A stretch of 64,000 nt of DNA. Origin: Polyangiaceae bacterium (GTDB lineage Bacteria; Myxococcota_A; Polyangia; Polyangiales; Polyangiaceae). The notes under the pieces were generated by a model, which had not been told where the DNA came from, ran no database searches, and saw only the letters and a program-made list of their open reading frames with translations. Positions 1 through 50,694 of the stretch are shown here, piece after piece. Position 1 is the first letter of the stretch; every line of letters starts with the position of its first letter. The stretch spans positions 1 through 64,000 of the forward strand of contig JADLFU010000211.1 of NCBI GenBank assembly GCA_020849655.1, in the 5' to 3' direction. The position numbers and the translations under genes are program-made.

Positions 1-123
1 AGCCGGATTGGGCTGGAACCGCGCGCAGGCGTGGCCGTGCCACGTCGAGCACGGTTTCACCCAAGGCGGCCGAAGGACGCGAGGAATCCGGCGCTCGCGA
101 CGAAGGGCCCCCGAAATCCATGC
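1..123 (+). repeat. Dispersed structured repeat, copy A (truncated by window edge)
   Basis: This stretch matches 46229-46351 without gaps at about 90% identity (about 12 mismatches in 123 bases by eye). It keeps the hairpin CCGTGC/GCACGG (35-40 with 49-54, 8-base loop). A second hairpin around a GAA triloop (66-71 with 75-80) carries one G-A mismatch. Here the repeat does not lead into a kinase gene. It ends exactly at the stop codon of the convergent gene 124-1047. Most differences would change residues in any reading frame, so a coding role is unlikely. It could be an orphan leader, a small RNA or a mobile-element remnant. Its left part lies outside the window. Confidence 0.75.
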
Positions 124-46120: not shown

Positions 46121-46185
46121 AGGGGCCTTGGCCGAGCGCGCGGGTCGCCCCGCGTGTTAGATCATCGCCGCTTGAGCATGGATGT

Positions 46186-46347
46186 CGGGAGCCCAAGGAG
46201 CGAGAGCGGGAGTCCGAAGCGGAATTCGAGCCGGATTGGGCTGAACCCGCGCGCAGGCGTGACCGTGCCACGTCGAGCACGGATTCACCCAGGGCGTCCG
46301 AAGGACGCGAGGAGCCCGGCGCGCGCGACGAAGGGATCCCGAAACCC

Positions 46348-46351
<4 letters not shown>
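46186..46351 (+). ncRNA. Structured 5' leader / dispersed repeat, copy B
   Basis: Bases 46229-46351 match the window start (1-123) at about 90%. As RNA this region can fold into an outer 7-bp stem AGCCCAA/TTGGGCT (46190-46196 with 46236-46242), a hairpin CCGTGC/GCACGG (46263-46268 with 46277-46282) and a perfect hairpin GCGTCC-GAA-GGACGC (46294-46308). GGGATCCC follows just before the kinase ATG at 46348. There is no Shine-Dalgarno before that ATG. It may be a structured leader that controls kinase translation, or a repeat family that carries promoters. Confidence 0.5.

Positions 46352-50690
<4,339 letters not shown>

Positions 50691-50694
<4 letters not shown>

Follow-up and report, generated by a model that had tools for sequence, protein, structure and literature searches.

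The closest described systems to the repeat analysed here are short palindromic elements. The Correia elements of Neisseria (NEMIS/CREE) are short, non-autonomous and present in many copies, with terminal inverted repeats, a target duplication and an end-to-end hairpin, and they are reported with promoters, an IHF site and RNase III binding or cleavage (PMC2229807, PMC2649163). ERIC and RUP are palindromic MITEs of 107-127 bp, ERIC being co-transcribed with its neighbours (PMC2229807, PMC3049150). Insertion at a stop/start junction with a terminal ATG was not encountered in the portion of the ERIC and RUP literature covered. Rickettsia palindromic elements (RPE) add in-frame peptide segments inside proteins.

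We analysed a 64,000-nucleotide stretch of a Polyangiaceae bacterium genome (the window), in which a structured repeat lies at the 5' end of a giant kinase gene. This repeat is almost certainly a MITE of a newly found family that, judging from the sequence comparisons below, inserted into the ancestral TTG start of the kinase (TTGAG). It is accordingly the scar of a transposon rather than a leader shaped by evolution to control the kinase gene. The family is undescribed within reach of the searches made, and its kind is already known. The features are listed below; G000 is the genome of the window and G001 is a congener.

46157 to 46164, plus strand: possible promoter -10-like motif TTAGATCA, seen with the flanks side by side and similar in G001
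46172 to 46176, plus strand: left target-site duplication TTGAG (ancestral kinase TTG start plus AG), identical to the empty site TTGAGCGAC in G001
46177 to 46350, plus strand: MITE copy at the kinase, CATGG...CCATG, 174 bp (covariance-model match and copy alignment)
46177 to 46194, plus strand: left terminal inverted repeat CATGGATGTCGGGAGCCC, pairing with the right end
46333 to 46350, plus strand: right terminal inverted repeat GGGATCCCGAAACCCATG, pairing with the left end
46348 to 46350, plus strand: putative kinase ATG start, supplied by the element and in frame with the kinase
46348 to 50694, plus strand: kinase gene, 1448 aa, with Pkinase, AAA_16 and TPR domains (Pfam)
46351 to 46355, plus strand: right target-site duplication CTGAG, its first base differing from TTGAG
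1 to 122, plus strand: second MITE copy, right part (covariance-model match 1-127, cut off 5' by the contig end)
123 to 127, plus strand: target-site duplication CTCAG of the second copy

The MITE is like the Correia elements in its shortness, terminal inverted repeats, target duplication, end-to-end hairpin and many copies beside genes. However, Correia elements have TA at their termini and target, while the MITE targets YTSAR, and their 24-bp terminal repeats are unrelated in sequence to the MITE by eye. ERIC and RUP are likewise palindromic MITEs, but they have a different sequence and a TA target. RPE share with the MITE the character of a palindromic mobile repeat in or at genes, but the MITE interrupts genes or sits at gene ends. 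Its 174 bp and a 5-bp duplication together are not divisible by 3, so RPE-type in-frame read-through does not apply. A protein-coding, RPE-like element was considered and rejected (at such a GC content open frames are frequent, and the element's length disrupts the frame). In the open-licence literature, no described MITE of this kind was found in myxobacteria.

The covariance model matched the kinase copy, one of the sequences from which it was built, over its full length (196 bits over 46172-46355, which is the whole repeat including the flanking duplications). Two things fixed the edges of the kinase copy: the point at which similarity gives way in the flanks, and the empty site. Copies aligned with their flanks start with CATGGATTTCGGGAGCCC and end with GGGATCCCGAAATCCATG, and the terminal inverted repeats (CATGGATTTCGGGA...TCCCGAAATCCATG) are near-perfect. 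Full copies are mostly 174 or 175 bp, within the range of MITEs (about 100-600 bp), and have no transposase gene; they are dispersed between unrelated flanks with sharp element edges, and have matching duplications and empty sites. Sequence variation among copies is about 10%. Three copies (L064, L073 and L081) have internal deletions and keep both ends, as expected of MITEs. The initial annotation described a 120-nt leader ending before the kinase ATG and recurring at the window start with about 90% identity. The recurrence was confirmed (46229-46355 against 1-127, 90% identity over 127 nt), but the unit is a 174-nt element plus duplications, and the ATG lies inside it. What stood was the view of a structured, repeated, non-coding element forming the kinase leader and fitting no named element: an Rfam scan gave no family matching the repeat at the gathering score.

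Instead of the two copies first seen, about 60 copies or fragments are present in G000 (draft assembly, 6.56 Mb, 307 contigs) according to the core pattern and the covariance model, and about 15 in G001. Searching the region against the whole draft genome gave at least 40 strong copies. The core pattern was found at 47 places (46 close and one doubtful) and the reversed control pattern at none, while the covariance model gave 59 matches in G000, a few of them antisense on palindromic copies. Many contigs of the draft genome begin or end inside MITE copies, and the copies thus explain where the assembly breaks. The second copy in the window, at position 1, consists of the right part only because the window's contig starts inside it. 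The in-frame TGA stop of a minus-strand gene (124-1047) is at 124-126, inside the CTCAG duplication of this copy.

The insertion target has the form YTSAR on both sides, and the flanks are otherwise unrelated. Duplications were counted at 34 two-flank sites, and two more sites cut by contig ends were set aside. The central TSA was identical in 26 of the 34 and all five bases in 19; most misfits were at the base bordering the element, where G is favoured on the left side and C on the right. The duplicated stretch comprises no less than the central TSA (which is TGA or TCA), and in many cases the full five bases. Its length is ambiguous between 3 and 5 bp, because the element-adjacent base often differs from the native base.

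The congener G001 provided empty sites. The FxsA-kinase gene order is common to G000 and G001, and the kinase proteins are 93% identical over the first 300 residues. The G001 kinase junction reads GGGCTTGAGCGACGCG, without the element and with the site intact. The TTG in this empty site is likely the kinase start codon; kinase homologues in two other genera (L055 and L061) begin ATGAGCGA- at the corresponding position. A further dozen or so orthologous loci are also element-free in G001, with clean empty junctions at L003, L004, L009, L013, L018, L020 and L030 among them.

In the window, the kinase ATG is formed by the last three bases of the MITE, which ends in CCATG, and the junction reads ATG CTG AGC GAG, with the element's ATG in the reading frame of the original first codons. 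At a distance of 176 bases from this ATG, the left TTG is out of frame, and in the right duplication copy the ancestral TTG is CTG. The element's ATG is thus the only near in-frame start, indicating that the insertion replaced the kinase start codon, and the ATG at 46348 would be the one used. The empty congener site would then document, with unusual clarity, a MITE turning a TTG start into an ATG at a regulatory kinase, and annotators should be warned that in such genes the start codon is part of a transposon end. As first reported, no Shine-Dalgarno sequence was found before the kinase ATG. It is equally absent before the TTG in the G001 empty site, so the leader is not what accounts for the missing ribosome-binding site, whose lack is older than the insertion. 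A similar TAGATC-like motif is present in both species immediately upstream of the insertion point and may be a promoter; with a promoter at this position the element would be the entire kinase leader. A 1439-codon open frame (46285-50604, minus strand) is antisense to the kinase and is a candidate frame only.

Compared with its shuffled versions, the kinase copy has a more stable fold on either strand (z -4.3 and -4.6). The 34-copy consensus forms a single long, end-to-end hairpin. Double changes affected 14 of 49 pairs compared to 5.4 in shuffles, 13 of the 14 being in the two outermost helices; in the terminal helix, 8 of 15 pairs had double changes across copies. The initial annotation had pointed to two other stems, CCGTGC/GCACGG and GCGTCC-GAA-GGACGC, and would have given up its proposal if further copies did not exist or if substitutions broke the stems uncompensated. 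Further copies do exist and compensatory changes are found in the terminal hairpin, but not in the two named stems. Both are present in the kinase copy; neither shows covariation, and neither is supported as a conserved structure. GCGTCC-GAA-GGACGC is perfect only by virtue of one private base (the middle T-A pair is present in one of 34 copies), and one arm of CCGTGC/GCACGG varies without compensation. For the kinase mRNA, the prediction places the AUG in the closing stem with all of its bases paired. The TTG of the empty-site leader is also predicted to be mostly paired, and for this reason a change in translation cannot be claimed from the fold.

Relative to genes, the 33 two-flank sites with gene calls (home-made codon model, with Pfam-confirmed and strong genes as its training set, applied to flanks joined back together across the site) comprised 15 in-frame TGA stops within the duplication, three starts, nine intergenic positions and six in predicted coding sequence. 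In these regions the remaining YTSAR sites were 159 coding, 14 intergenic and five at stops; compared with these, the copies are strongly depleted from coding sequence. The excess of stops over intergenic positions was modest (15:9 for copies vs. 5:14 for other YTSAR sites, p = 0.03). Single flanks were assigned with a version of the codon model whose error on its own training set was 7 of 47 gene pieces. With it, 23 of 27 genes pointing at the element ended on the duplication's TGA, and 17 of 25 pointing away from it were in frame with the element's ATG (one third expected in both). At L003, L009, L018, L029 and L091 the insertion site is an overlapping stop/start, that is, the MITE separates overlapping genes at several loci besides the kinase. 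Clustering of copies before kinase genes was not supported, as they are found at the stops and junctions of various unrelated genes, which by eye from translations include SbcD, endonuclease III, an ArsA/ParA-like ATPase, a lipoprotein and others. Much of the site pattern is expected from a TGA-containing target together with selection against broken genes, and targeting beyond these two is not proven. Two copies break genes, judged by eye: L011 (G000:C129) in a GDFN-motif endonuclease/exonuclease-like gene and L014 (G000:C87) in a ygiQ-like radical SAM gene. At L012 (G000:C108, 1508-1691) a copy has inserted close to the 5' end of what, by eye from its translation, is an IS256-like transposase gene.

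These data bear on three other explanations. The strong fold, the covariation, the start codon buried in the closing stem and the location directly 5' of the kinase would all suit a dedicated mRNA leader, riboswitch-like or thermosensor-like, which regulates translation of the kinase and has spread to other genes by duplication. Such a leader, raised in the initial annotation as a possible means of translational control, is nevertheless very improbable: copies lie in either orientation with respect to genes, chiefly at the 3' ends of genes and in intergenic positions, and some are inside genes (the two gene-breaking copies); the repeat is absent from the G001 kinase gene, whose empty site lacks a ribosome site just the same; no Rfam family matched; and target duplications and empty sites, hallmarks of transposition, show insertion, the empty sites already weakening this explanation. 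Still more remote is a REP/BIME-type palindrome mobilised by a RAYT (Y1 HUH) transposase, even though the element is palindromic, short, in high copy and often at gene 3' ends. HUH single-strand transposition proceeds without target duplications, which are present here, and the genome has no Y1_Tnp match.

A third explanation adds to the MITE reading and does not exclude it. After landing, copies may have been selected for effects on the expression of their neighbours, such as mRNA stability or operon uncoupling. The hairpin covariation, which includes G-U pairs beyond the terminal repeats, and the modest excess at stops argue for such retention; but covariation can also arise from the needs of transposition, the stop excess is small and depends on rough gene calls, and the copies vary by about 10%, several with the internal deletions noted above. 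We consider retention for regulatory effects rather unlikely, although clearly less so than the two preceding explanations.

The MITE inserts at YTSAR, duplicating at least TSA, and is likely mobilised in trans by a DDE-type transposase. At the kinase, insertion into TTGAG left the upstream TTG out of frame and the element's terminal ATG at the head of the gene, as its putative start. With the putative promoter upstream, the kinase mRNA would have a strong hairpin at its 5' end, with the AUG inside the closing stem, and this predicted leader hairpin may reduce kinase translation. Elsewhere the element is tolerated where its target overlaps a stop codon or a stop/start junction: the TGA stop is preserved by the upstream duplication, and the downstream side keeps or gains a start. 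Tentatively, an element with a TGA-containing target and outward ATG ends could slip into stops and stop/start junctions, leaving both genes intact and swapping in its own start and a hairpin leader. If this is true, gene junctions are safe havens for the element and translation is uncoupled within operons. The family offers a testable system for the survival of short mobile hairpins in gene-dense, GC-rich genomes.

Any autonomous parent is expected to carry the ends GCATGGATTTCGGGA. No autonomous element or transposase with MITE ends was found in the draft assembly, which breaks at repeats, in searches covering DDE_Tnp_1, DDE_Tnp_4 and Y1_Tnp. DDE_Tnp_1 (PF01609) had three matches, none of them flanked by MITE ends, and Pfam searches of the assembly for DDE_Tnp_4 and for Y1_Tnp, the transposase of REP/RAYT systems, gave none. 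Not every MITE in the literature has a known parent. The IS1031 subgroup of the IS5 family makes 3-bp TNA target duplications, which the TSA core of the MITE duplication fits; however, a cognate transposase with MITE ends was not found in the draft assembly, so IS1031-type parentage is only a guess.

The exact core pattern had no match in 84,980 species genomes, a set that possibly does not contain the source genome, and a DNA search of 184 genomes of the order found the element in G000 and G001 only, among the best few candidates per genome. A weak match was seen in G036. With the covariance model, two full-length diverged copies (L117 and L120, 97% alike) were found in G108, which belongs to another genus of the family. 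They have the ends TCCTAGATTTCGCG...CGCGAAATCTAGGA (TCCTAG...CTAGGA) and TCA duplications. These ends differ from those in G000 and yet still pair, so both arms changed together; the difference also makes the terminal ATG a feature of the G000/G001 branch. One of the two G108 copies is located at the TGA stop of a long open frame.
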